Origin: Gammaproteobacteria bacterium
Lineage (GTDB): Bacteria; Pseudomonadota; Gammaproteobacteria; Pseudomonadales; Azotimanducaceae
Direction of reading: 5' to 3'
Length of the DNA: 64,000 nt
Assembly (NCBI GenBank): GCA_026708185.1
Contig: JAPOVK010000017.1
Location: 248,001-312,000 of the forward strand
Under the pieces are notes generated by a model, which was given only the letters and a program-made list of their open reading frames with translations, did not search any database and was not told the origin of the DNA. The translations under genes were made by a program, and so were the position numbers. Position 1 is the first letter of the stretch, and each line of letters starts with the position of its first letter. Positions 50,198 through 64,000 of this stretch are shown here, in pieces.

Positions 50198-51052
50198 ATG
50201 CGCATCGTACCGAGCGACGCGACCCTGGGGGCGACGGTCACGGACGTCGACCTCGCCTCCCTTGACGAGGCGATGTTCGCCGCGATCGAATCCGCATGGC
50301 ATCACTACGCCGTCCTGGTGTTTCCGGACCAGGCATTGACCGACGCGGAGCACATCGCCTTCACGCGTCGCTTCGGTCGCCTGGAGCGAGGTCTCAAGCG
50401 CGCAGCCACGGCCGGCTTGGGGCGGCTATCGAACGTCGATCGCAACGGCACCGTCGTGCCCGCCGCGAACATCCAAGCCAGGTTCCAGCGCGGCAACCGC
50501 GAGTGGCATTCGGACAGCTCGTATAAGCGCGTGGGCGCCAAAGCGTCGATCCTCGCTGCGCACGTGACCCCTTCCGAGGGCGGCGAGACGGAGTGGGCCG
50601 ACATGCGGGCCGCCTGGACGGCCCTTGAGGCATCGCGCCAGGAATGGCTGGCCGACAAGATCGCCGTGCACAGCTATCGGTTCAGCCACACCTGGCACGG
50701 CGGACTGGAAATACTCAACGACGACGATCTCGCCGGCCTGCCGCCAGTCGAGCATCCGCTGATGCGTATCCATCCGGATACGGGTCGCCCCAGCCTTTTC
50801 GTAGGGCGGCACGCGAGTCATATCGTCGGCGAAGACGTCGACGACTCGCGTCGTCTGCTCCGCGACCTGACCCGCGAAGCCTGCCAGCCGCCGCGCGTCT
50901 GGCGACACGCCTGGCAACCCGGCGACATCGGGATCTGGGACAACCGCTGCGTCCTGCATCGCGGCCGGCCTTGGCCAGCGGACGAACCGCGTGTCATGGC
51001 CCGCTCGACGGTGGCCGGGGCCGAACCCGACAACGAGTGGGCGGTGCCGTAG
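50198..51052 (+). CDS. TauD/TfdA family Fe(II)/2-oxoglutarate dioxygenase, second copy
   Basis: A 284-residue alpha-ketoglutarate-dependent oxygenase related to the one at 44872: REWHSDSSYK gives H104 and D106, and DNRCVLHRGRPW the distal His. It shares GGETEWADMRAAWTALEA with the first copy. It is shorter by about 44 residues, mainly at the C-terminus. No sulfonate transporter is nearby. Ends about 180 bp before the RiPP-type cluster. Confidence 0.9.
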   Translation: MRIVPSDATLGATVTDVDLASLDEAMFAAIESAWHHYAVLVFPDQALTDAEHIAFTRRFGRLERGLKRAATAGLGRLSNVDRNGTVVPAANIQARFQRGNREWHSDSSYKRVGAKASILAAHVTPSEGGETEWADMRAAWTALEASRQEWLADKIAVHSYRFSHTWHGGLEILNDDDLAGLPPVEHPLMRIHPDTGRPSLFVGRHASHIVGEDVDDSRRLLRDLTREACQPPRVWRHAWQPGDIGIWDNRCVLHRGRPWPADEPRVMARSTVAGAEPDNEWAVP

Positions 51053-51233: not shown

Positions 51234-51914
51234 ATGTTCAACAATCCGTTTGACTCGTTTCACAACACGGTTGCCGAAGCGAAGGAAGAACGCGAGCGAC
51301 TGTACCGGCTGCTGACCATCTCTACACCTCGGGAGCGCCTCCTCGTCGCCGGCATCGCTTCGTTGTTGCTCTTTCTCGCGGCATGGCTCGTTCTTGGCGG
51401 CGTGACCCGCACTGTCAGCGTGGTCGGTGTCCTGGTCGAGCCTGGCGAGGCCGCGTCCGAGGTAAACCGGCCGCTGGAGGCGCTGATGTGGATTCCGCGC
51501 GACGTTGCCCCGAGGCTGGCACCTGGCATGCGGGTGGTCGTCGAGTTCGCGAGGGCGGACGGGGGTGCGGACGCACGGGGCGGTCGAATCGCCATGATCG
51601 CCTCGGTGCCTTACTCGGGTCCGCTCGCAGGGCTTGAAGCTGCCGCCCCAGTCGCCGCACATCTCCTCCACGTCGCCCTCGACGAAGCGCCGGACGTCGA
51701 AGCCCGCGCCGGCACTCAGTGCCGCATCGCAATCGAACTCGGTAGGCAGTCTCTCGTCACGCTGTTCGGCGTGAGCGCCCCGGGGCCTAAGCCGCGCTTC
51801 GCTGCGCTGCGCGCGGATCCGCCTTCGGCCTCAAGGCCCCGCCGTCCTTTCACGAAAGCTGCGCCCGCGGTCACTTCGTTCCCTTGGCGCATCCTTCATG
51901 AAAGCGCCCCATAG
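51234..51914 (+). CDS. HlyD-like membrane fusion protein of the NHLP export system, minimal form
   Basis: A protein of up to 226 residues. N-terminus LYRLLTISTPRERLLVAGIA leads into one membrane helix (about 36-56), then a beta domain with TRTVSVVGVLVEPGE, APGMRVVVEFARADGG, a GRIAMIASVPYSGPL segment and IAIELGRQSLVTLFGV, as in NHLM-type bacteriocin secretion proteins. The coiled-coil hairpin usually found between the two halves of the lipoyl domain is missing. After VTLFGV (about residue 180) the sequence is Pro/Arg-rich and coincides with palindromic DNA, so the true end of the domain may be earlier. Confidence 0.72.
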   Translation: MFNNPFDSFHNTVAEAKEERERLYRLLTISTPRERLLVAGIASLLLFLAAWLVLGGVTRTVSVVGVLVEPGEAASEVNRPLEALMWIPRDVAPRLAPGMRVVVEFARADGGADARGGRIAMIASVPYSGPLAGLEAAAPVAAHLLHVALDEAPDVEARAGTQCRIAIELGRQSLVTLFGVSAPGPKPRFAALRADPPSASRPRRPFTKAAPAVTSFPWRILHESAP

Positions 51915-52090
51915 CCGTGTCCGGTACCTCGCGTTCGCTCGGCACCGGCGCGTGCCGCTTGCGGCACGCCGCCTCCGGCCCAAGGCCACTCCGACCGCGC
52001 ATGGAACAAACGCCGCCGGTCGCGTACGCTCCCTCTGGCCCTCGTACCGTGCGAGGCACCCGTAGGGTGCGCGCGAGTAGACCCAACAGG
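51780..52090. repeat. Palindrome-rich segment between transporter genes
   Basis: Contains several small inverted repeats: GCGTGCCGC-TT-GCGGCACGC (51950-51969), CTTTC-AC-GAAAG, GGCCT-CA-AGGCC and GCACCC-GTA-GGGTGC. It spans the Pro/Arg-rich tail of the HlyD-like frame and the Arg-rich head of the next frame, both unlike their families. It looks like a repeat insertion or a non-coding spacer read through by open frames. Confidence 0.5.
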
Positions 52091-54271
52091 GTGCCGGCTG
52101 CGGATCCGCAGAAACGCAGGATCACAACGCCGATTGTCCTGCAGATGCATGCGACGGAATGTGGCGCTGCCTGCATGGGCAGCGTGCTGGGGTACTTCGG
52201 ACGCTGGGTGCCGCTTCCGGAACTGCGCGAGAAGTGCGAGGTCAGCCGGGACGGCAGCAGCGCCGCGAGCATAGCGCGTGCGGCCCGGCACTACGGCCTC
52301 GAGTGCAACGGATTGAGCGTTCGCGCCGAACAGCTCAGGAAGCTGGAACTGCCCCTGATCCTGTTCTGGCAGTTCAGCCACTTCGTCGTCCTCGAAGGGT
52401 TCGATGCCGGCAACTTCCATCTCAACGATCCGGCCACGGGACGCCGAGTGGTCGCCGAGGACGATTTCATCCGGAGCTACAGCGGAATCGCGTTGCGATT
52501 CAAGCGCGGACCCGACTTCGAGCCCGGCGGCGAGCGCCCCGGCCTGTTCACGCAATTGCATGGCCTGCTGAGCGAGTCTCGCGGTGTCCTAGCGTTGGGG
52601 ATTGCCTGCGCGCTGCTGCTGACCCTGTTGACGCTTGTCGTACCCGTGTCGCTTGGCGTCTTCGTGGACGATGTCCTCGAGAACCGTGGTCCCTGGGGCG
52701 GACTGGTAGCGGCCCTGCTAGGCGGTGGGATCCTGGTGTACGTCCTGGCCCTGCTCAAGCACAGGTTCCTGCAACGGCTCGCGATCCGAATTTCCGTGAT
52801 CGGATACGACCAAGCCCTTTCGCGCATGCTCCGGTTGCCGGTGGAGTTCTTTGCCCACCGGCTGGTGGGCGACCTCACGGATCGGGTCTCGTCGATTGAC
52901 AGGATCGCGAAGAACCTGACGGACCGTTTCCTCGTCCTCCTCATCGACATGGCGATGAGCGCGATTCTGCTCGTGGCCATGCTGGCCTACGACGCTAGGC
53001 TCGCCCTTCTCGTCGTGGCACTAGCGCTCCTGCACGGCGTGCTTGCGCGCGCCCTCGGCCCGCTCCGCGCCGTGCGCAGCCAAGCGATGCGGCTCGAACA
53101 AGGCCTGCTGATCGGCGTCGGCATGCAGATGCTGAATCACGCGGACAACTTGCGGATGACAGGCTCGGACGACCGTTTCTACGCACGCTGGAGCGGGCAA
53201 CAGGCGCGCGAACTCCACGCGCGCCAGCTCTATGCCGAACTCGGCTCCGTCAACAACGCGCTGCCTGGCCTGATCGCGGTGTTTCGCGCCGCCGCGGTCC
53301 TGGCGCTGGGCGGCAGCCTGGTGTTGACGGGGGAGATGGGCTTGGGGACGTTGGTCGCGTTCTACATCCTCGCGGAGATGTTCCTCGCGCCCATCGGGCG
53401 GTTCCTCGAGTTCTCGGATCGGCGACAAGCCCTCGAGACCGATCTGCAGCGCCTAGACGACGTTGGCAGAGCCGCTGAAGACCCGACCACGCCTAGCCTG
53501 CGGAGTGCCGCCTCATCGTCCATCCCGACGTTCAACGGTCGGTTACAGCTCGCGGGTCAACTCGAGCTACGCGATGTCACTTTCGGCTTCAACCGGAGCC
53601 GACCACCGCTCTTGAAGGACTTCAACTTAGTGATCCGACCTGGCCAGCGCGTAGCCGTCGTCGGTCCCAGCGGTTCCGGCAAGTCGACCTTGGCGCGCCT
53701 GGTGGCGGGCGTCTATCGGCCGTGGTCAGGGGAGATCCTGTTCGATGGCTATCCAAGGGACGAGATTCCAGAGGAAGTCCTGCGCCGGTCCATCTCCATG
53801 GTGGACCAGGAGGTCGTACTCTTTTCGGCGTCTCTACGCGACAACATCACGCTGTGGAACCCGGCAATTCCGGACGAGCCCATCATCGCCGCGGCACGGG
53901 ATGCCCGCATCCATGACGAGATCCTCAAACGGCCTCTCGGCTACGCGACCCCCGTCGAGGAAGGCGGGGTGAACTTCAGCGGCGGCCAGCGGCAACGCCT
54001 GGAGATCGCGCGTGCGCTGACGGGTAACCCGACGGTGCTCATCCTGGACGAGGCCACCAGCGCGCTCGACGCGGCAACCGAGGAGGAGATCGACGATGCC
54101 ATGCGGCGGCGCGGCGTGAGCTGTCTGATCGTCGCGCATCGGCTCAGCACGGTGCGCGACTGCGACGAAATCATCGTGCTCGAGGGCGGCGTGGAGGTGC
54201 AGCGCGGCGTCCACGAAGAGTTGATCGCCGACGAGACGGGAACGTACTACAAGCTGGTCCGGTCGGGCTGA
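51917..54271 (+). CDS. NHLP-type bacteriocin export ABC transporter with C39 peptidase
   Basis: A peptidase-permease-ATPase, 784 residues from GTG 51917. C39 protease: catalytic Cys82 in HATECGAACMG, His155 in QFSHFVVLEG and Asp171 in HLNDPATGR, all present, so leader cleavage at a Gly-Gly-type site is expected. Six membrane helices follow (from about 235), then the ATPase with GPSGSGKSTLARL, SGGQRQRLEIARAL and LILDEATSALDA. The first 60-80 residues are Arg/Pro-rich and probably not translated: ATG 52001 or GTG 52091 would give a normal family start (TTPIVLQMHATECG follows). It overlaps the next gene by one base. Confidence 0.92.
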   Translation: MSGTSRSLGTGACRLRHAASGPRPLRPRMEQTPPVAYAPSGPRTVRGTRRVRASRPNRVPAADPQKRRITTPIVLQMHATECGAACMGSVLGYFGRWVPLPELREKCEVSRDGSSAASIARAARHYGLECNGLSVRAEQLRKLELPLILFWQFSHFVVLEGFDAGNFHLNDPATGRRVVAEDDFIRSYSGIALRFKRGPDFEPGGERPGLFTQLHGLLSESRGVLALGIACALLLTLLTLVVPVSLGVFVDDVLENRGPWGGLVAALLGGGILVYVLALLKHRFLQRLAIRISVIGYDQALSRMLRLPVEFFAHRLVGDLTDRVSSIDRIAKNLTDRFLVLLIDMAMSAILLVAMLAYDARLALLVVALALLHGVLARALGPLRAVRSQAMRLEQGLLIGVGMQMLNHADNLRMTGSDDRFYARWSGQQARELHARQLYAELGSVNNALPGLIAVFRAAAVLALGGSLVLTGEMGLGTLVAFYILAEMFLAPIGRFLEFSDRRQALETDLQRLDDVGRAAEDPTTPSLRSAASSSIPTFNGRLQLAGQLELRDVTFGFNRSRPPLLKDFNLVIRPGQRVAVVGPSGSGKSTLARLVAGVYRPWSGEILFDGYPRDEIPEEVLRRSISMVDQEVVLFSASLRDNITLWNPAIPDEPIIAAARDARIHDEILKRPLGYATPVEEGGVNFSGGQRQRLEIARALTGNPTVLILDEATSALDAATEEEIDDAMRRRGVSCLIVAHRLSTVRDCDEIIVLEGGVEVQRGVHEELIADETGTYYKLVRSG

Positions 54272-57210
54272 TGGACGCGGGGCCGCGCCATCCATCCGTT
54301 GCGGAACTCGCCGCCCGCTCCGGCACGGCTGTACCGTGTGCCGGCAACCTGCCGGTCAAGCTCGACGATCCGGACAGCGCCTGGTTCATCGAGCAGGGCG
54401 CGGTGAACCTCTTCGTTGTCGAGTTCGAGGATGGATCTGAGCGGGCGGCGCCGCAGCATCTGCTCCGGCGGGAGTCAGGCTGGCTGCTGCCCGGCGTCGC
54501 ACCCGACCACGGGGATGCTGGTGAAGCGACGTCGCTCAGTATCGTCGCCAAGGGGTTGCCCGGCACGCTCCTCAGGCGGCTGCCGGCGTCCGCCCTGTCC
54601 GAGGTGCATCCGGCGGAACTGGCGGACCAGATCGATACTTGGCTGAGCGCCTTCACCGACACGTTGTCGCGTTTCGCGGGTCGCCTCCCCCCTCCGACCG
54701 CCTTGGCCGAACCCGGCATGGCACGGACGCTTGCCCCCTGTGTTGTGTCCGCGCGGCGCGACGTGGTCTGGGTATCCGGCCTGCCCAGTGGCGCCGGGAT
54801 GTACATGGACATCGTCGACCCGTCGGAGCTGGTCGATGCGCGCGGATTGGAAGGAGCCGCGATACCGCTGACCCGGGCAAGCTGGCTCACCCTATTCGAC
54901 GAGGCAACCGTCCGCGGCCAGGCAACCCAGACGCTGGCGGCGCAGGGCATGCTGCAGCCGGCGCTGGCGGCCTTCCACGTGGTCGCCTTCGCCCTTGAGC
55001 GGCTCAACCGCCGTTTGGCCGTCGTCGACGAAGCGAATCTCGAACGGGCTCGGACAATGAGCCGCCACACCGCCGAGCAGGCTGCCCGGCAGCGGTTGTT
55101 CAACGTCTACGACCGGCCGCTCGAGCGTGATGCCCATGACGAGGACACGGCCCTGGCAGATGCCCTGCACACAATCGGCCGTCACCAAGGCGTCGAGATC
55201 AAGGTTCCGAAACGGTCCGGTTCGGTGGATTCTCCGCTCGACCTCAACGACATCCTGGATGCGTCAGGAGTTCGCGCCCGTCGCGTGCGCTTCCGGGACG
55301 AAGGCAAGTGGTGGCGCGGCGACAGCGGCCCGCTGTTGGCGTTCCGCGCCGAGAGCGGGCAGCCCGTCGCCCTGCTGCCCAGACTGTTCGGGCGCTACCG
55401 GGAGGTCGACCCGGTCGCCAAGCGCAGCGCCAACGTGACGGCGCATCGTGCCGCCGCGCTGCAAGACGAAGGCTGGATGTTCTATCGACCGTTGCCGGCT
55501 CGCGAGGCCAAGCCGACGGACCTGCTGCGCATGGCGCTGCATGGTTCGGCTGGCGACGTGGCGCGACTCGTGCTCGCCGGCATTCCGGGCGGCCTGATCA
55601 AGTTGCTGCCCGCGATCGCGCTCGGGTTCGTTGCGAATCAGGTCGTTGCCGGCACAGGTGACAGCGCGCTCTACGCCGTGGCCGTGACCCTCGCCGGATT
55701 CGGTTTGCTGGGCGCCCTGCTGCACATGCTGCAGAGCACGGCCATGATGCGGCTCGAGGGGCGGGCGGCATCCCAGGTCGAGGCGGCGTTCTGGGACCGC
55801 CTTATGCGCCTTCCTTCGAATGTCCTGCACGGCCGTCCCGCGGGCGATCTGGCCATGTCCGGCATGGCCTTCCAGAATCTTCGCGACGGCCTGCAAGGAG
55901 CGGTTGCCGACAGTTTGCTGTCGGTCGTCTTTCTGCTTCCGGTGTTCGGCGTCATCTTCTTCTACGATGCCGCGCTCGGATCCATCGCCCTCGGTTTCAG
56001 CGCGGCCTCGTTGTTGGTCACCGTGGCGCTCGGTCTGCGCCAGCTCTCGCCGCACGGGCGCATGATCCGCGCAATCCGCCGTGTGGCCGGCCGGCTATTC
56101 CAGATCGTGGGAGGCATCGCCCGGCTGCGCATGGAGAATGCCGAGGCATCGGCGTTCGCGATCTGGGCGGACGACTATCGCGAGCAGAAGCGCGCGGAAC
56201 TCGAGCTCGGAGAGATCGAGGGACACTCGCGGGCATTCGGCACCGCCCTTCCGTTGCTCGCGGCGGGCGTGCTGCTCTTGGCGGTGGTGGCGGTGGGTGA
56301 CCGGAACCTCCCCGTCGGCGACTTCCTGGTCGTCTACACGGTCTTCATCGCGTTCCAGTCCGCCATCGGCCGGCTCGGCGAGTCCTTGAGCGCGGTTGCG
56401 GCTACGCTGCCGGCTTTCGCTCAGATGCGTCCGCTACTCGCTGCCTCGCCGGAGACCGACACCGAAGGCGAGCCCGTTGACCGACTGGGCGGCGAAGTCC
56501 TGTTCGATCACGTTTCGTTTCGCTACGAGCCTGATGGCCCGTTGATCCTCAACGACGTGACGATTCATGCGCGTCCGGGCGAGTTCGTCGCCATAGCCGG
56601 CGAATCCGGTGCCGGCAAGAGCACCCTGTTTCGGCTTGCGCTTGGGGTCGAAGTTCCGACCGCGGGCGCGGTGTATTACGACGGGCGGGACCTCCGGCAC
56701 CTGAACCTGAAACAGCTACGACGCAAGGTCGGTACGGTGCCACAGGCCGTACGACTGCATCCCCAGGATATCTGGGACAACGTTGTTGCCCACCACGAGG
56801 GAACGACCACGGAAGAGGCATGGCAAATGGCCAGAGCCGCAGCCATCGAACGCGAAATCAAGGCGATGCCCATGGGCATGATGACGATGGTCGGAGATGG
56901 CAGCACCCTCCTGTCGGGCGGTGAGAGCCAGCGCGTCACCATCGCACGATCGCTGCTCGGCAGCCCGCGTGTCATGTTGCTCGACGAGGCAACCAACTGG
57001 CTCGACAACGAGAGCCAAGCCGAGGTCATGCGCAACCTTGCCGGACTGACGTCGACCCGAATCGTCATCGCGCATCGCCTTTCCACCTTGGAGAGCGCTG
57101 ACCGCATCTACGTGATGCAGGAAGGGACGGTAGTCCAATGCGGTACGTTCAGGGAACTGATGGAAGTCGAGGGCGCTTTCAAGCAACTCGTCAGCAGGCA
57201 GCTCGCCTGA
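54271..57210 (+). CDS. NHLP-type bacteriocin export ABC transporter, second subunit
   Basis: A 979-residue permease-ATPase partner without peptidase. The N-terminal third (about 1-420) is soluble and includes a cyclic-nucleotide-binding-like beta segment (DSAWFIEQGAVNLFVVEFED). Membrane helices from about 425 (GLIKLLPAIALGFVANQVVA) lead to an ATPase with AGESGAGKSTLFRL, LLSGGESQRVTIARSLLG and VMLLDEATNWLDNE; the last deviates from the usual DEATSALD. Starts on the last base of the first transporter's stop. Together they should form a heterodimer exporting a modified peptide. Confidence 0.92.
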   Translation: MDAGPRHPSVAELAARSGTAVPCAGNLPVKLDDPDSAWFIEQGAVNLFVVEFEDGSERAAPQHLLRRESGWLLPGVAPDHGDAGEATSLSIVAKGLPGTLLRRLPASALSEVHPAELADQIDTWLSAFTDTLSRFAGRLPPPTALAEPGMARTLAPCVVSARRDVVWVSGLPSGAGMYMDIVDPSELVDARGLEGAAIPLTRASWLTLFDEATVRGQATQTLAAQGMLQPALAAFHVVAFALERLNRRLAVVDEANLERARTMSRHTAEQAARQRLFNVYDRPLERDAHDEDTALADALHTIGRHQGVEIKVPKRSGSVDSPLDLNDILDASGVRARRVRFRDEGKWWRGDSGPLLAFRAESGQPVALLPRLFGRYREVDPVAKRSANVTAHRAAALQDEGWMFYRPLPAREAKPTDLLRMALHGSAGDVARLVLAGIPGGLIKLLPAIALGFVANQVVAGTGDSALYAVAVTLAGFGLLGALLHMLQSTAMMRLEGRAASQVEAAFWDRLMRLPSNVLHGRPAGDLAMSGMAFQNLRDGLQGAVADSLLSVVFLLPVFGVIFFYDAALGSIALGFSAASLLVTVALGLRQLSPHGRMIRAIRRVAGRLFQIVGGIARLRMENAEASAFAIWADDYREQKRAELELGEIEGHSRAFGTALPLLAAGVLLLAVVAVGDRNLPVGDFLVVYTVFIAFQSAIGRLGESLSAVAATLPAFAQMRPLLAASPETDTEGEPVDRLGGEVLFDHVSFRYEPDGPLILNDVTIHARPGEFVAIAGESGAGKSTLFRLALGVEVPTAGAVYYDGRDLRHLNLKQLRRKVGTVPQAVRLHPQDIWDNVVAHHEGTTTEEAWQMARAAAIEREIKAMPMGMMTMVGDGSTLLSGGESQRVTIARSLLGSPRVMLLDEATNWLDNESQAEVMRNLAGLTSTRIVIAHRLSTLESADRIYVMQEGTVVQCGTFRELMEVEGAFKQLVSRQLA

Positions 57211-57237: not shown

Positions 57238-58539
57238 ATGACCGAACCCATGGACGCCACGGCGCGGTTGCGCGCAAAGGCCGGGAGAGACCCGGACTTT
57301 CGCGCGCGGTTGCTCGCGAACCCGAAGCAGGCCATCGAGGAGGAACTCGGGCTGAAACTGGCGGAGGGGCACACGGTTCATGTCCACGAAGAGACCGACA
57401 CGGCAGCACACCTGGTGATCCCGCCAAAAGACAAGCTCAGTGCAGAGGAGCGGGAAGAAGCGAGGACCGGCGCCACATCGCTCGAGTTCCTGACGAAGAC
57501 GATGCACGATCCTGCACCTCCGAGGCGCGAACCAGCCCCCGTGAGCGTGTCTGCCCGCGCGCGGAAGGCGTCGCCCGACGCGTTGGCGGAGGCAGCGAGG
57601 GCGGGCATCCAGCGCGGTCTTGAGTTCCTCGAGTCCACCCTCGACGAGAACGGGGCTTGGCACTGCATCCGGTTCAACCTCGCAAGGCCCGAGGTTCCGC
57701 GACACTTCGAGAGACCTCCTTTCGTTTCCGCCCTTTGTGCGCTCGCCCTCGAAAGTTGCGACGAAGCGCGGGCCAGGACGATCTGCGCAGCGACCCGCGA
57801 GTACCTTGGCCAGACCATGGAACATCCTGGCTTCTGGCGCTACTACTTGCACCTTCCACAGGACCTCGACAGTACCGCACTGTGTGGAATGGTCCTGCGC
57901 TCGCACCCTTGGATCGCGCTTGAGCGGAACGTGCCGCGAATCCTGGCCAACCGCGACGAGGACGGTCGGTTCACGACCTGGGTGCTCGCCCCGGATGAGC
58001 CGGACGTGGTGGCGAGCTTCCGCATCGAAGCCGACCCGGTCGTCAACGCCAACGTCGTCGCCTACCTCGGCGACCGTCCGGAGACGGAGGATTGCCAACG
58101 ATGGCTGGAGACCTTGATCATGGAGGACGATGTTGAAGGCAGGTCCAAGTGGTATCCCGGCACGGTTACGGTCTACTACGCATGCACACGTGCCATGGTT
58201 CGAGCACAGCCGGCGCTTGCCAAGCTGCGTCCCTTGCTCGCCGATCGAATACTGGGGTTGCGCGATGCCCAAGGAGACTACGGCGACGTTCTGCACACCG
58301 CGCAGGCCGTCTCGGCGCTCCACAACATCGGAAGCCTCGGGAGGATCGACACGAGACGCACTGTTGACATGCTGCTGGCTACCCAGCAGGAAGACGGTAG
58401 TTGGCCGGAGCTGCTCGCTTTCGGGGATCAAGCGCTCAAGTGGGGGGCCGTCGGGCAGATCGGCCACGGTTCCGAGTCGGTGAGCTCCGCGTTCTGCATC
58501 GAAGCCCTTGCGCATCTCGAAAGAGCCCTAAGAGCTTGA
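57238..58539 (+). CDS. NHLP-leader domain fused to a terpene-cyclase-like toroid protein
   Basis: A 433-residue two-part protein. Residues about 7-75 read like an NHLP (nitrile hydratase alpha-like) leader: DPDFRARLLANPKQAIEEEL, GLKLAEGHTVHVHEETDTAA, HLVIPPKDKLSAEEREEART. A Pro-rich linker (90-115) leads to an alpha/alpha toroid of the prenyltransferase/squalene-cyclase type: QW-like units TLDENGAWHC, GLRDAQGDYGDVL and QEDGSWPE, and a DLDSTA motif (209-214) close to the DxDD acid of class II terpene cyclases, with the last Asp replaced by Ser. It lies between transporter and oxidase genes in the operon. The leader may recruit the YcaO protein. Confidence 0.8.
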   Translation: MTEPMDATARLRAKAGRDPDFRARLLANPKQAIEEELGLKLAEGHTVHVHEETDTAAHLVIPPKDKLSAEEREEARTGATSLEFLTKTMHDPAPPRREPAPVSVSARARKASPDALAEAARAGIQRGLEFLESTLDENGAWHCIRFNLARPEVPRHFERPPFVSALCALALESCDEARARTICAATREYLGQTMEHPGFWRYYLHLPQDLDSTALCGMVLRSHPWIALERNVPRILANRDEDGRFTTWVLAPDEPDVVASFRIEADPVVNANVVAYLGDRPETEDCQRWLETLIMEDDVEGRSKWYPGTVTVYYACTRAMVRAQPALAKLRPLLADRILGLRDAQGDYGDVLHTAQAVSALHNIGSLGRIDTRRTVDMLLATQQEDGSWPELLAFGDQALKWGAVGQIGHGSESVSSAFCIEALAHLERALRA

Positions 58540-58622: not shown

Positions 58623-61007
58623 ATGGCGGAGCAGACGGTTGTAGGTGGTGTCCCTAACCAGGGCGAGGTGGTCGATCCGGGGCGTATCGAGCCCAAGTTC
58701 GCCAATGCCCTTCCGCACTACCTCCCGCTCGGCATCTTTCCACTGATTCTCCTCGCGGCTGTCCATGGCGGGTGGTGGCTACTGCCGCCGTTTCTCTTCA
58801 TGAGCGTGGCAGGACCGCTCGATCGCGCGCTGGGCCGGGATGGACGCACCATGGACCCGGCGGGAACGCCGGAGCGTCGACTGGTCTGGCACAACGTGCC
58901 GGTCTGGACGTGGGCCGTGCTGTGGCCGCCGACGCTCGCCTTCGGCATGTGGCAGATCCTGGTCGCGAATCCGTTCGCGGTCTGGGAAGAGGTGATCCTT
59001 GCCATCATCCTGACCATGGAAGCCCAGGCCGTGTTCGTCGTCGGTCACGAAATGGTGCATCGGCGCACGACCTGGGAACGGCGCTTCGGCGAGTTCCTGC
59101 TTGCCTCGGCTTCATACCCGCAGTACGCGACCGAGCATGTCTACATCCACCATGCCAAGGTCGGGACACCCCACGACGTCGGATCAGCCCCGAAAGGAGA
59201 GAGCTTCTGGAGGTACTTCCCCCGGGAAGTGGCAAGTAACTTGACCAACTCCTGGCGGGTTTCGGGTGAACGCCTGGCACGGCGCGGTCTTGCCCGGTGG
59301 CATTACAGCAACCCGTTCTGGCGGTACGGTGCCGCGCTCGCATTCTGGTATGGCCTCGTGCTCTGGATGGGCGGTGCCTGGGCCCTGCCGGTGTTCATCT
59401 TCCTGGGTTTGTCGTGCGTCTTTTCGATGAAACTGAGCAACTACTTCCAGCACTACGGTCTGCGCCGTGTTCGGCTGCCGACCGGTCGTTGGGAAAAGGC
59501 CTTGCCGCGCCACTCGTGGAGCGCGGACTGGAAGTTCAGCAACTGGATGTTCTTCAACATGCAGCGGCATGCCGACCATCACGCGATGGCGTCACGCCAC
59601 TATCCGCTACTCCAAGTGCCCGGGCCCGACGAGTCACCGGAGTTGCCGGGCACCTACTCCGACATGATGAACATCGTGCTGCGACCGAAGCGCTGGTTCG
59701 AGAGGATGGACCCATTGGTCGAGCAATGGCGCGAGCGGTTCTACCCGGAGATCGACGACTGGAGCGCGTACGACAGCCGCGTCACCTCGGCACGCCCCGA
59801 CGCCTTCGATGCGATCGTCGAGATCTTCGGCGCCGCGCCGCGGCTGGCGAGTTGGATCGAGCGCAACCCGGAGTTGCTGGACGTGCTGCATGATCGCGAG
59901 TTCACCGATTTGGATCTTCCGAAGGGTTTCGGACCGGATCCGGAATCCGAAGCGATCGCCAGGAGAGGTTTGGCGAGGCTCTATTGGACGCGCGAGATGG
60001 GCGTACGTGAGATGAAAGACGCGGCCAGCGAGTTACCGAGCGCCGACGCCAGGGAGACCGCCGAGGTGGTGCGGAACTGGTCGAACGACAAGGCCTTCCA
60101 GATCGGCATGCATGTCGTACGCGGGAACCTGTCGGCCCGGGAGGCGCAGGTCGCGCTGTCCAACCTGGCCGCAGCGTCGCTCTCGACCGTCCTCGCAGCC
60201 GTGGTCGCGGACGTCGTCGACCGGGTGGGAACACGGGGCGCAGCGGGGGTCGCCGCTGTCGCCTTGGACGACCTCGCCAGTCGCGAGGCGCATCCTGGTG
60301 TCGCGATTGACGTACTCCTTGTCCACGGCGGTTGGCGGCCGCGCGATGGCGAGCGCCTGTCCCGGCGTTTTCTCGACAGCATGCAGGCCCTGGGGCGGGC
60401 TAGCCTCTTGTTCTCCCCGGTTCCCAGTGATTCACCATGTTGCATGGCGCTGCCGCTTGACGACCTGGCCGCGCACTGCAGGAACTTGGCGGCGGGCGAA
60501 AGCCTGGCCCTCGCCCGGGCCGAGTGCATCTTCGAGTACGGGGATCTCGATCTCGGCCGCCGCTTCCAGGAGGCGCGACGCGAAGCCTTGGCGGGCTGGA
60601 GCGGCAAGGTCCGCTCTCGAGAGGCGCTTGCCGACCTGGCGGACACGGGCGTGTCGACCTATACGGTGATGCGTGGCGGGCTGGACGATGTCGAACGGGC
60701 GTCGCGGTTCCTGCAGTTGACCGATCCGGGGGCGTCTCTCGGCGACCCGGCGCCAACAGCGGCGAGGCTGTTGGCCGACCGTGGGGTCGACCCACTCGCG
60801 CAAGCTGCGGACTTGTGGCGCGATCTGCACGGCGTTGTCCGTCTCGTCGGTGGTGAAGGATTCGATGTGGCCTCGGCATGGCCCAAGGTCAAGGCGGTGG
60901 TCGCCGAAGCCTGCGGCTACGAGGACTTCGACGCGTTGAGTGCCGCGGTGGTCGAAACGGCGTCGCTTGCGGCCGCCGAGATCGATACTCTCGTCTCGCG
61001 CGGCTAG
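58623..61007 (+). CDS. AlkB-type diiron hydroxylase fused to a GlnE-like adenylyltransferase region
   Basis: A 794-residue fusion. Residues about 30-380: membrane hydroxylase with the AlkB histidine boxes HEMVH (142-146), EHVYIHH (171-177), NYFQHYGLRR (273-282) and MQRHADHH (313-320), plus about six helices. Residues about 390-794: resembles the GlnE glutamine-synthetase adenylyltransferase N-terminal half: WIERNPELLDVLHD, GLARLYWTREMGVREMKD, ESLALARAECIFEYGDLDLG and RFLQLTDPGASLG. The nucleotidyltransferase GSDxD site reads GVAID (559-563), so it is probably inactive. GTGGAG precedes ATG 58623. No such fusion is known to me. Confidence 0.82.
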   Translation: MAEQTVVGGVPNQGEVVDPGRIEPKFANALPHYLPLGIFPLILLAAVHGGWWLLPPFLFMSVAGPLDRALGRDGRTMDPAGTPERRLVWHNVPVWTWAVLWPPTLAFGMWQILVANPFAVWEEVILAIILTMEAQAVFVVGHEMVHRRTTWERRFGEFLLASASYPQYATEHVYIHHAKVGTPHDVGSAPKGESFWRYFPREVASNLTNSWRVSGERLARRGLARWHYSNPFWRYGAALAFWYGLVLWMGGAWALPVFIFLGLSCVFSMKLSNYFQHYGLRRVRLPTGRWEKALPRHSWSADWKFSNWMFFNMQRHADHHAMASRHYPLLQVPGPDESPELPGTYSDMMNIVLRPKRWFERMDPLVEQWRERFYPEIDDWSAYDSRVTSARPDAFDAIVEIFGAAPRLASWIERNPELLDVLHDREFTDLDLPKGFGPDPESEAIARRGLARLYWTREMGVREMKDAASELPSADARETAEVVRNWSNDKAFQIGMHVVRGNLSAREAQVALSNLAAASLSTVLAAVVADVVDRVGTRGAAGVAAVALDDLASREAHPGVAIDVLLVHGGWRPRDGERLSRRFLDSMQALGRASLLFSPVPSDSPCCMALPLDDLAAHCRNLAAGESLALARAECIFEYGDLDLGRRFQEARREALAGWSGKVRSREALADLADTGVSTYTVMRGGLDDVERASRFLQLTDPGASLGDPAPTAARLLADRGVDPLAQAADLWRDLHGVVRLVGGEGFDVASAWPKVKAVVAEACGYEDFDALSAAVVETASLAAAEIDTLVSRG

Positions 61008-61011
61008 CCAG

Positions 61012-63330
61012 GTGCTGCAACAGACCGCGTCGAGCCCCGGAGGCGGGCTGCTCCCGAGAACCACGCTGGAGGACCAAGGACGTGTGCGACGTCCGGCGCT
61101 CGCCCCGCATCTGCGGTTCCACGAGATCGGCGAAGGGCAGACACTGCTGGTTTCGGAGTCCTTCAACACTCTGCTGCACGGCAAACTCTACGCCAACCTG
61201 CTGGCTCTGCTCGACGGGGAACGCACGCTCGATTCCGTCGTGGCGGCGCTCAACGGCGCTCATGCCGCCACCGATGTGGTTTCGGCGATCGGCTCGCTTG
61301 CCAAGAGGGGTTACGTCGTCTCTGCGGACCATGGCATGGACCCCACGCGGGCAGCCTACTGGTCGAGCCTTGGGGCCTCGCCGCGTTGGGTCGAACAGCG
61401 CTTGAAGGCGTGCTGCATCGCAATCCTCGGCGACGACGGCCGCCTGGTGCGGCACTTGGAGGCATCGGGCGCCAGGGTCGGACAAGCCGATCCCGATCTC
61501 ACCGTGATCGTCTCCGACGACTACCTGGGCGACGCGCTAGCCGACGTGAATCGGCGTCACCTCGAACGGGGGAGCCCGTGGATACCGGTGCGCGCACGAG
61601 GCATGGAACCGCTCTTCGGCCCGGTCTTTCCCGCGGATGACACGGGGCCATGCTGGGCGTGCCTAGCCTACCGACTGCGCAGCCACCAGGAAGTCCACGG
61701 CTTCCTGCGCAATCTCGCCGGGGAGGAACGGGCGTTCAAGCCGTTCGCAACGGACCCGGTGGTGCTCGACGCGCTTCACGGGCTGGTCGCGGCGGAGATT
61801 CTCAAGTGGCTGGTACTGGACGAGACCGCCCCGCTCCACGCGCACGCGATCACGATGGACGTTGGCACGTTCGCAGCTGCCAAGCACCAGGTCGTGCGCC
61901 GGCCACAGTGCCAGGCCTGTGGCGACGAGGCCTTGTACCGGCCAGATCGACCGCCGCTTCCGCTACGCCTCGCCGCGAGTCCCAAGGCGCATCGCAACAG
62001 CGGCGGTGCGCGTGTCGTGGCACCGGAGGTCACCATCGCGAAGTACAGGCACCTCGTGAGCCCGATCAGCGGTGTCGTGACGTGGCTTTCGCGCACCACC
62101 GATGAGACCGATTCCTGGCTCCATGTCTACTGGGCGGGCAGCAATCTCGGCTTGAGAAGCCGCAGCCTGAGCTCGCTCAGGCGCAGTCTGCGCAGCAAGA
62201 GTGCCGGGAAGGGCAGCACGCGGGAGCAATCCGAGGTCAGTGCCCTCTGCGAGGCAGTCGAGCGCTACTCGGGAGCGCTGCATGGCGACGAGATTCGTGT
62301 GCGGAGGCGACTCGTCGACTTCGCGAGCGACGACGAGGCGATCCATCCCAACGCGGCCCAGCTTTTCAGCGACAGCCAACTCGACAACGCGCCGAGCATC
62401 AACGCGAAAGGTCATCCATACAACGTGGTTCCGCCACGCCTCGCACCCGATGCCGAAGTCGACTGGACACCGGTGTGGTCGCTGACGCAGAAGCGGCATC
62501 GCTATCTACCGACCTCCATGCTCTACAGCATGGCACCCGAACAGCGTGGACCGTCGGACCTTGTCGCGGACTCCAACGGCTGTGCCGCAGGCAACACGCT
62601 CGAAGAGGCCATCCTGCAAGGCTTCTACGAGCTTGTCGAACGCGATGCTTTCGCCATTTGGTGGTACAACCGCCTGCGCGTCCCCCGGGTCGATCTCGGG
62701 AGCTTCGACGACGAGTACCTCGCCTCGGCCCCCCGTCACTACGCTGACTACGAGCGCGACCTGTGGATGCTCGACATCACCTCCGACATCGGCGTTCCGA
62801 CGTTCGTCGCACTCTCGCGCAGACCGGACGGGGAAACCGAGGACATCATCTACGGGGCCGGCTGCCATGCCGACCCGCGCCTTGCCGCGTTGCGTGCGCT
62901 CTGCGAACTGAACCAGTGCCTCACGTGGCTGCCGCGGCCCGGCAAGCGTGACGGCCGGCCCATGATCGACGATCCACTGGCGCTCTGGTGGTGGAAGACC
63001 GCCCGGTTGGCTGACTGTCCCTGGCTGACGCCGGGCGCAGACAAGGCGCCCCGCGCGCGTCCGCAGGACAATGTGACCGAGTCCACGGACACGCGCGATG
63101 ACGTGGAGCTCTGTCGAGGGCTCGTCGAGGAGCGGGGCATGGAGTTCCTGGTGCTCGACCAGACACGACCGGACATCGGCATGCCCGTGGTGCGTGTCAT
63201 CGTGCCCGGCTTGCGACACTTCTGGCCAAGGTTCGCTCCCGGGCGTCTTTACGACGTACCGGTCGGCTTGGGCTACCGCGATCGTCCCCTCGCGGAGTCA
63301 GACTTGAACCCGGCACCCGTCATCGCGTGA
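61012..63330 (+). CDS. Fused TOMM cyclodehydratase: leader-binding ThiF-like domain plus YcaO
   Basis: A 772-residue protein from GTG 61012, four bases after the fusion gene's stop. The N-terminal half has an RRE/ocin-ThiF-like region (LRFHEIGEGQTLLVSES, LLDGERTLDSVVAALNG) with a four-cysteine zinc site, C214/C217 (CWAC) and C300/C303 (CQAC). From about 340 the YcaO domain: EQSEVSALCEAVERYSG, GCAAGNTLEEAILQGFYELV and ERDAFAIWWYN, the ATP/Mg-binding glutamates. YcaO enzymes phosphorylate the amide to make azol(in)es, thioamides or amidines. The usual Pro-rich C-terminus is only NPAPVIA. Confidence 0.9.
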   Translation: MLQQTASSPGGGLLPRTTLEDQGRVRRPALAPHLRFHEIGEGQTLLVSESFNTLLHGKLYANLLALLDGERTLDSVVAALNGAHAATDVVSAIGSLAKRGYVVSADHGMDPTRAAYWSSLGASPRWVEQRLKACCIAILGDDGRLVRHLEASGARVGQADPDLTVIVSDDYLGDALADVNRRHLERGSPWIPVRARGMEPLFGPVFPADDTGPCWACLAYRLRSHQEVHGFLRNLAGEERAFKPFATDPVVLDALHGLVAAEILKWLVLDETAPLHAHAITMDVGTFAAAKHQVVRRPQCQACGDEALYRPDRPPLPLRLAASPKAHRNSGGARVVAPEVTIAKYRHLVSPISGVVTWLSRTTDETDSWLHVYWAGSNLGLRSRSLSSLRRSLRSKSAGKGSTREQSEVSALCEAVERYSGALHGDEIRVRRRLVDFASDDEAIHPNAAQLFSDSQLDNAPSINAKGHPYNVVPPRLAPDAEVDWTPVWSLTQKRHRYLPTSMLYSMAPEQRGPSDLVADSNGCAAGNTLEEAILQGFYELVERDAFAIWWYNRLRVPRVDLGSFDDEYLASAPRHYADYERDLWMLDITSDIGVPTFVALSRRPDGETEDIIYGAGCHADPRLAALRALCELNQCLTWLPRPGKRDGRPMIDDPLALWWWKTARLADCPWLTPGADKAPRARPQDNVTESTDTRDDVELCRGLVEERGMEFLVLDQTRPDIGMPVVRVIVPGLRHFWPRFAPGRLYDVPVGLGYRDRPLAESDLNPAPVIA

Positions 63331-63339
63331 GGAGACAGC

Positions 63340-64000
63340 ATGGACATTGACGAGGCGGTCACCCTCACCCAGGACCGTCTTGCTGGCGAGGGCGCGACCA
63401 TGGCGGACCTGCTCGGGCACTTCCGCAACCGCGTATCGCCGATTCTCGTCGGCGATGCGTCATGGGCACGCATCCTCGAATGCGCAGGGCAACTTCCGAT
63501 CACCATGGGCGCCCTTCCTTTCGGCTTCGAACTCCCGCTGCACGACGTCCGGCCGCAGGCGGATTTCGGGGTGTCTCTCGCCAGCCGTACGAGGACGGCT
63601 GCGTTCTTCGCCGGGCGCGCGCGAACGGATCGGACGGATGAGACGGCCAGGGCGATCGGGCGGCTGTTCCAACAGATGGACACCCCAGACTCGCCGCTCG
63701 GCCAGATCGTCGGGCGTAAGCTGATGCTCGAGTACGACATCGGCTCTGCGAACGACGGCGACCGACCGCTTCCGGGACTGTTCCTGCGCCCCGGCGAACG
63801 TCCGGTCATCGGGGCCAGCGGGCAAGTCAAAGATGTCGCCACGGTGGTTGACGCACTCGTGTCCTGCGTTGGCTGGGAGAGCAGGAACGACGAACTCGCG
63901 TGTGCGGAGCGGGTCTACCGGGCACAGCCGGAAGATACGCGCCTCGATTCGTTCGGCGTGTTCCCGTCCCGGCCGCGGGCGGTCCGCCTGGCGGTCATGG
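63340..64000 (+). CDS. Unrecognised protein of the RiPP cluster, incomplete at the window end
   Basis: An open frame of at least 220 codons without stop, from ATG 63340 behind GAGGAGA, ten bases after ycaO. Readable parts: MDIDEAVTLTQDRLAGEGAT, GQLPITMGALPFGFELPLHD, RKLMLEYDIGSANDG and LPGLFLRPGERPVIGASGQ. No signal peptide, P-loop or metal motif. No family recognised; mixed alpha/beta composition. Its position as the last visible gene suggests a tailoring or scaffold role in the same pathway. Confidence 0.75.
   Translation, partial: MDIDEAVTLTQDRLAGEGATMADLLGHFRNRVSPILVGDASWARILECAGQLPITMGALPFGFELPLHDVRPQADFGVSLASRTRTAAFFAGRARTDRTDETARAIGRLFQQMDTPDSPLGQIVGRKLMLEYDIGSANDGDRPLPGLFLRPGERPVIGASGQVKDVATVVDALVSCVGWESRNDELACAERVYRAQPEDTRLDSFGVFPSRPRAVRLAVM

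Follow-up and report, generated by a model that had tools for sequence, protein, structure and literature searches.

Introduction

Structurally solved AlkB enzymes act on alkanes, and the adenylyltransferase GlnE is controlled by PII. The srp proteusin cluster of sponge microbiomes is said to have its founding study in Nguyen et al. 2021. As far as the portions of two accounts considered here go, the YcaO protein SrpC cyclises SrpE at its LCCCW core, and SrpI brominates this core (PMC10858898, PMC10286304). We analysed a stretch of 64,000 nucleotides from a gammaproteobacterial draft genome (contig JAPOVK010000017.1, positions 248,001 to 312,000), called the window below, in which a single gene at 58623..61007 joins an AlkB-type oxygenase to a GlnE-like domain. 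We call this domain GLD, a name coined for the present analysis only. The gene was first noticed by a model working from the letters alone (the original prediction), which took it for a fusion of the two folds with a changed adenylyltransferase site.

An AlkB-type oxygenase and a GlnE-like domain in one frame

The fusion gene (58623..61007, plus strand) encodes 794 amino acids in a single open frame and has relatives in 80 loci, the best 80 of 131 found in a genome scan with the fusion protein being kept. It is virtually certain that the two halves of the protein are an AlkB-type oxygenase and a GlnE half. The part corresponding to a membrane diiron oxygenase (58689..59745, plus strand; about residues 23-374) matches Pfam FA_desaturase at 1.3e-25, and comparison of the sequence with the PDB aligned fusion residues 52-368 with AlkB 8f6t (E 1.6e-43) and residues 47-364 with AlkB 8sbb (E 1.5e-35). 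The boxes typical of the family, all on the plus strand and aligned to 8f6t, are HEMVH (histidine box 1; 59046..59060, residues 142-146), HVYIHH (histidine box 2; 59136..59153, residues 172-177), NYFQHYG (59439..59459, residues 273-279) and the last histidine box, RHADHH (59565..59582, residues 315-320). The nine box histidines, which we take to be the metal ligands of AlkB, are His in all rows with a letter at the site (81 rows). Long helices are predicted for this half, with a predicted local distance difference test score (pLDDT) that falls below 50 in two stretches, residues 294-303 and 307-340.

In the C-terminal part, Pfam recognises GlnE at residues 473-540 with 26.5 bits (cut-off 24). 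The match to NCBIfam PRK14108 (E 7.3e-18) amounts to 63.6 bits, compared with a whole-protein cut-off of 724, and fails as a full GlnE; two tandem adenylyltransferase halves were not found in the 794 residues, AlkB standing in the place of the first. An AlphaFold2 (AF2) model of the C-terminal half matches GlnE and has the fold of one adenylyltransferase half, so that the structural likeness on which the original prediction depended is seen in the model.

A protein of this kind could also arise from a frameshift, a chimeric assembly or an annotation error, and the host assembly, a draft, consists of 65 contigs and has 3.66% contamination. Against this, the same fusion is read in one frame on 80 other contigs, which excludes a join made by assembly, including one near residue 385, which the original prediction had named as a finding that would refute it, and leaves the artefact explanation with a negligible probability. 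Both halves are at least partly covered in all 80 relatives (best-segment identity 56-74%), and at least residues 22-779 are matched in 71 of them. Among 38 relative genomes, 13 matches to the AlkB part exceeded 50% identity, of which 12 lie within frames of 799-979 codons and one is ended by a contig end. The fusion is thus confirmed.

RND permeases carrying the same domain

In the window's genome, Pfam GlnE matches fall in four places: the fusion gene and three long frames of 1550-1995 codons (L091, L092 and L093). The three long frames encode RND permeases that end in a GLD, and they lie on contigs other than that of the srp cluster. One such protein, when scanned, contained both ACR_tran (Pfam, 6.9e-145) and GlnE (1e-10). 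When the RND part of one RND-GLD protein was compared with loci of other genomes, 15 more aligned to it, at 52-66% identity. Altogether, RND permeases with a C-terminal, apparently dead GlnE half were recognised at L091-L093, L106, L107, L173 and L203-L217, L107 and L213 being one gene, of which L213 is the longer frame and aligns to RND. The idea that GLD is confined to the srp cluster was rejected on these grounds, and the picture drawn by the original prediction, right about the fusion, is incomplete in that it did not see the domain at the end of permeases of the same genome.

No partner of GLD beyond AlkB and RND was recognised in the genomes searched, matches being judged by score and frame length rather than each being read; two of the genome sets overlap in part, at most four candidates per genome were scored in the three large draws described below (398, 385 and 396 genomes), and phage and viral collections lay outside this search. 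A search of plasmids for GLD gave no match.

Loss of the active site and constraint on the domain

GLD can be divided into a helical subdomain (59790..60182, plus strand; residues 390-520), which contains REFTDL (425-430) and ARRGLARLY (446-454) and is our proposed docking surface, a putative pseudo-nucleotidyltransferase part delimited with the AF2 model and its GlnE match (60183..60722, plus strand; residues 521-700), and a C-terminal helical tail (60723..61004, plus strand; residues 701-794). The degenerate GlnE active site, GVAID, is found in the second of these (60297..60311, plus strand; residues 559-563): the S-D-x-D site reads VAID in the window protein, the first Asp being lost and the second kept. 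When the best-scoring half of each protein is considered, the catalytic Asp pair is intact in all 47 canonical GlnE and in five of six members of a group that we call GlnE2 (see below), and in none of 86 AlkB fusions or 20 RND fusions; the 86 AlkB rows omit repeat copies of the same genes drawn from whole genomes. An active adenylyltransferase is therefore unlikely, and, judged by these residues, the GlnE half is catalytically dead. The argument, already made from GVAID in the one protein, that the change speaks for binding rather than catalysis was borne out as far as the loss is concerned, binding being what the loss would suggest. It might be objected that GLD transfers nucleotides through a rebuilt active site, as the second position is D in 39 of the 86 AlkB rows and D or E in 61. 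However, the first position is D in two rows only, never together with the second Asp, and neither catalytic Asp is present in any of the 20 RND rows; we consider residual catalysis very improbable.

The evolutionary constraint is unevenly spread over the protein. The median ratio of nonsynonymous to synonymous substitution rates (dN/dS) is 0.077 for the AlkB part, 0.095 for the helical subdomain of GLD, 0.29 for the pseudo-active part and 0.24 for the tail, as calculated from 132 pairs that are not independent, of 80-97% identity only, after dropping those with saturated synonymous change. Alignments comprised 22 of 81 AlkB rows plus three RND rows (A1) or 49 of 81 AlkB rows (A2). There are 28 columns common to the AlkB and RND forms, and 23 of them fall in the helical subdomain. 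The tail is deleted in four of the 80 loci (L060, L061, L064 and L074). Because dN/dS is low next to the oxygenase and high in the pseudo-active part, and because the tail can be deleted, it is the oxygenase-adjacent segment, and not the old active site, that seems from these comparisons to do the work of GLD. The loose constraint on the pseudo-active part and the four deletions would also fit a merely structural or dimerisation tail kept by history, but constraint on the helical subdomain comes close to that on the oxygenase, and two unrelated membrane proteins have both kept GLD, which makes this explanation quite unlikely.

Origin of the domain

We built a 73-domain tree with canonical GlnE as the root; its rows were 27 AlkB (six paralogues, every fourth of the 80 loci and the window protein), 19 of the 20 RND rows (the omitted one is partial), six GlnE2 and 21 of the 47 canonical GlnE. 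AlkB-GLD forms one clade (99/90), as does RND-GLD (100/100), and the two are sister clades (100/99); together with GlnE2 they make up a group (99/100) apart from canonical GlnE, and the order within this group is weak. Two AlkB rows, L161 and L167, have long branches. The GlnE2 proteins are full two-half GlnE from six bins named Alphaproteobacteria or Rhodobacteraceae (L155-L160). All six have the pattern AR.GL.R with the following Glu, which no canonical GlnE shows (0 of 47), and all six have the F.DL mark, which is found only partly in canonical GlnE; these differences may in part reflect a segment lacking from canonical GlnE in the alignment. The simplest reading of these sequence data is that GLD arose a single time and that its source was a GlnE2-type protein, of which it represents the adenylylating half. 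As side observations on GlnE2, its second half is GLD-like, three of the six genomes (G059, G063 and G073) also hold a second, ordinary-scoring GlnE match, and in L157 the catalytic site reads APLN.

The occurrence of a dead GLD tail on both AlkB and RND proteins, and their sister relation, are new here. The original prediction knew of no described fusion, and a search of open-licence literature brought up no description of either the AlkB-GlnE or the RND-GlnE kind; the founding srp paper lies outside that check, and its map may show the gene under another name.

GLD might have kept a regulatory task, binding a PII protein or a nitrogen metabolite and so gating membrane enzymes and pumps by nitrogen status. 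The control of GlnE by PII speaks for it, and so do the presence of PII in the window's genome, where no canonical GlnE was found at E 0.001, and the fact that both fusion partners put GLD at the membrane. On the other side, nothing links the most conserved GLD segment to PII, and AR.GL.R with the next Glu, common to GlnE2, is absent from canonical GlnE, although an alignment gap may contribute; on balance we regard a regulatory role as unlikely. Separately, a PII-like domain was seen within a 414-codon frame at L266 (G000:C23).

Distribution among genomes

According to their NCBI record names, the 80 relatives belong to Pseudomonadota (55), Acidobacteriota (8), Latescibacterota (4), Nitrospinota (3), Nitrospirota (3), Gemmatimonadota (2), Myxococcota (2) and Binatota (1), two being without a phylum. 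Bin names can be wrong: the Gemmatimonadetes-named G090 and G091 share a phylum group with Latescibacterota genomes in the genome collection. We read most of the relatives as sponge-derived, on the basis of a few record names and the published habitat of srp rather than record by record.

Among 398 genomes evenly drawn from the window's phylum, fusion-type matches at E 1e-30 occur in the window's own genome only; in the other 62 matching genomes, of which 29 were aligned, score and frame length are those of canonical GlnE. For the class of G063 (385 genomes), matches in the AlkB-GLD range were obtained in ten and in the RND range in none, a lone frame of 1363 codons being GlnE2. Matches were present in two of 396 genomes from the phylum of G092 and in twelve of the 16 that the collection contains from that of G088. 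Whole genomes were searched for 50 of the 80 loci: of these 50 genomes with AlkB-GLD, six contain long frames of the RND type, and in two others there are fragments whose partner is unclear. Three genomes (G061, G067 and G085) carry a second, diverged AlkB-GLD (L163, L164 and L165), which shares a contig with the first and lies 16 to 23 kb away from it.

The fusion gene as a member of the srp cluster

The gene directly downstream of the fusion encodes a SrpC-like YcaO cyclodehydratase (60940..63330, plus strand; Pfam YcaO 8.4e-96); its listed frame overlaps the fusion gene, and its true start may lie further in. The gene directly upstream joins an NHLP-type leader to an alpha/alpha-toroid-like protein (57238..58539, plus strand). 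Further upstream on the same strand come an NHLM ABC2-type exporter permease/ATPase (54271..57210; TIGR03797 688.6 bits, just below the cut-off of 709.4), an NHLM ABC1-type exporter with a C39 peptidase (51917..54271; TIGR03796 822 bits, just below the cut-off of 853.3; Peptidase_C39 4.7e-32) and a short HlyD-like protein (51234..51914; TIGR03794, weak at E 1.5e-4). On the other side, a 372-residue protein of no known family (plus strand) starts at 63340 and runs past the window end at 64000 (L085:5341-6459; window position is 57999 plus L085 position). Beyond the window, on the minus strand, are a Trp halogenase (L085:6499-7773; Pfam 2.3e-42) and an NHLP precursor ending in GLCCCW (L085:7952-8275; TIGR03793 64.6 bits, cut-off 50.9). 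Since an LCCCW precursor, a YcaO protein and a halogenase are present, we are highly confident that this is the srp proteusin cluster and that the AlkB-GLD gene is a steady member of it.

The other loci were surveyed wherever the contig leaves room. YcaO lies directly downstream of AlkB-GLD in 70 of 70 such loci and is found in 78 of the 80 overall; the fusion beside YcaO, which the original prediction had proposed looking for in other genomes, was hence readily found, and its statement that neither fold is a usual partner of NHLP/YcaO clusters was mistaken. Of the 74 loci with room on the other side, 65 have the toroid protein directly upstream; a leader-like match lies on its frame in 65 of the 68 loci that have it, and a precursor was found in 52 of 60 with room. 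Counting all 58 loci with a precursor, 57 hold a copy ending in GLCCCW and one ends in GLSCCW; a second precursor, ending in MCCCGI, occurs in four of the 58, L060, L061, L064 and L074, all of them without the GLD tail. The halogenase query was matched in 43 of the 80 loci, some of these being perhaps other halogenases. In L040 (3255-7976), AlkB-GLD and YcaO form a single frame of 1574 codons. A TauD-type dioxygenase in the window (50198-51052) probably lies outside the cluster, as it has no match of at least 80 bits in the 80 loci. Elsewhere, at L088 and L089 (G000:C45), two adjoining NHLP-leader matches share one 231-codon frame.

The content of the cluster also bears on what the AlkB part could oxidise. 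It might act on a fatty chain or a membrane lipid that is later joined to the peptide or acts with it, GLD only recruiting the tailoring complex; the alkane-active AlkB structures are related to this half by sequence. But a scan of nine proteins of the cluster, one of which (372 residues) is without family, revealed neither a lipid-joining nor an acyl-carrier gene, and we would not expect this explanation to hold.

A possible role for the domain

Our preferred reading, to which we give somewhat less than an even chance, is that GLD serves for docking, without catalysis of its own, and delivers the srp peptide or YcaO to the oxygenase, which then oxidises the core. GLD would be cytosolic, at the inner membrane face, and its helical subdomain (about residues 390-520) would hold a soluble partner. 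The likeliest candidates are the precursor with its leader (through the SrpE leader) and the YcaO protein (SrpC) encoded just downstream. The membrane-embedded AlkB centre could then oxidise the core peptide before export, candidate reactions being hydroxylation of Leu, or oxidation at or beside thiazolines. On the RND pumps, the related domain may tether a different or a shared ligand.

Several points weigh against docking. The pseudo-active part is far less constrained (median dN/dS 0.29) than the helical subdomain. No precursor match is seen in eight of the 60 loci with room. G007 (98% complete) has three RND-GLD and no AlkB-GLD, and G022 (97%) shows the reverse; each form thus occurs without the other, so that a common srp ligand is not required, and the proposal that the two need each other in one genome was rejected. 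In the sections of the srp accounts considered, co-expression in E. coli led to partial cyclisation of SrpE by SrpC, and chimeric substrates were brominated by SrpI; an AlkB-type enzyme is not mentioned, so that cyclisation and bromination seem not to need AlkB; nor do these sections contain an oxidised srp product (PMC10858898, PMC10286304).

A wider proposal, which we regard as doubtful, is that GLD is an accessory domain of a new kind: one half of an enzyme of nitrogen control, catalytically dead, would have been recruited once as a cytosolic receptor on membrane proteins and then placed on an oxygenase for ribosomally synthesised and post-translationally modified peptides (RiPPs) and on efflux pumps. 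If true, one docking principle would link peptide making at the membrane with transport. The original prediction as a whole is partly supported: the fusion and the dead site were right, the view that neither fold usually accompanies NHLP/YcaO clusters was wrong, the RND form was missed, and the hydroxylation that it proposed, of the peptide, a lipid or the toroid product, is a candidate reaction.

Comparison with known systems

The srp cluster is widely spread, and the portions of the accounts considered do not say what it finally makes (PMC10858898, PMC10286304). As there, the cluster described here has an NHLP precursor with an LCCCW core, a YcaO protein and a Trp halogenase; those portions name SrpE, SrpC and SrpI, and an AlkB or GlnE part is unmentioned in them (PMC10858898, PMC10286304). 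The AlkB-GLD gene would therefore point to an oxidation step that they do not cover. Compared with the alkane monooxygenase AlkB (8f6t, 8sbb), the fusion is alike in sequence, histidine boxes and their order, but it adds a GlnE-type domain of about 400 residues and sits in a RiPP cluster.

With GlnE adenylyltransferase (1v4a, 3k7d), GLD shares, from end to end, the predicted fold of one half; it differs in being one half and not two, in having lost the catalytic Asp pair and in being fused to a membrane enzyme. GlnE2 (L155-L160) is the group nearest to GLD in the tree and has the F.DL and AR.GL.R marks in common with it, whereas GlnE2 proteins are two-half, unfused and, in five of six, still in possession of the catalytic pair. 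The half of a regulatory enzyme appears in this way to have lost its catalysis and yet to be conserved as a domain of two membrane protein families that are unrelated to each other, which makes GLD a clear case for the study of pseudoenzymes that gain new work. The AcrB-type RND permeases bear the same apparently dead domain at their C-terminus, as a sister clade, with a permease in place of the oxygenase.
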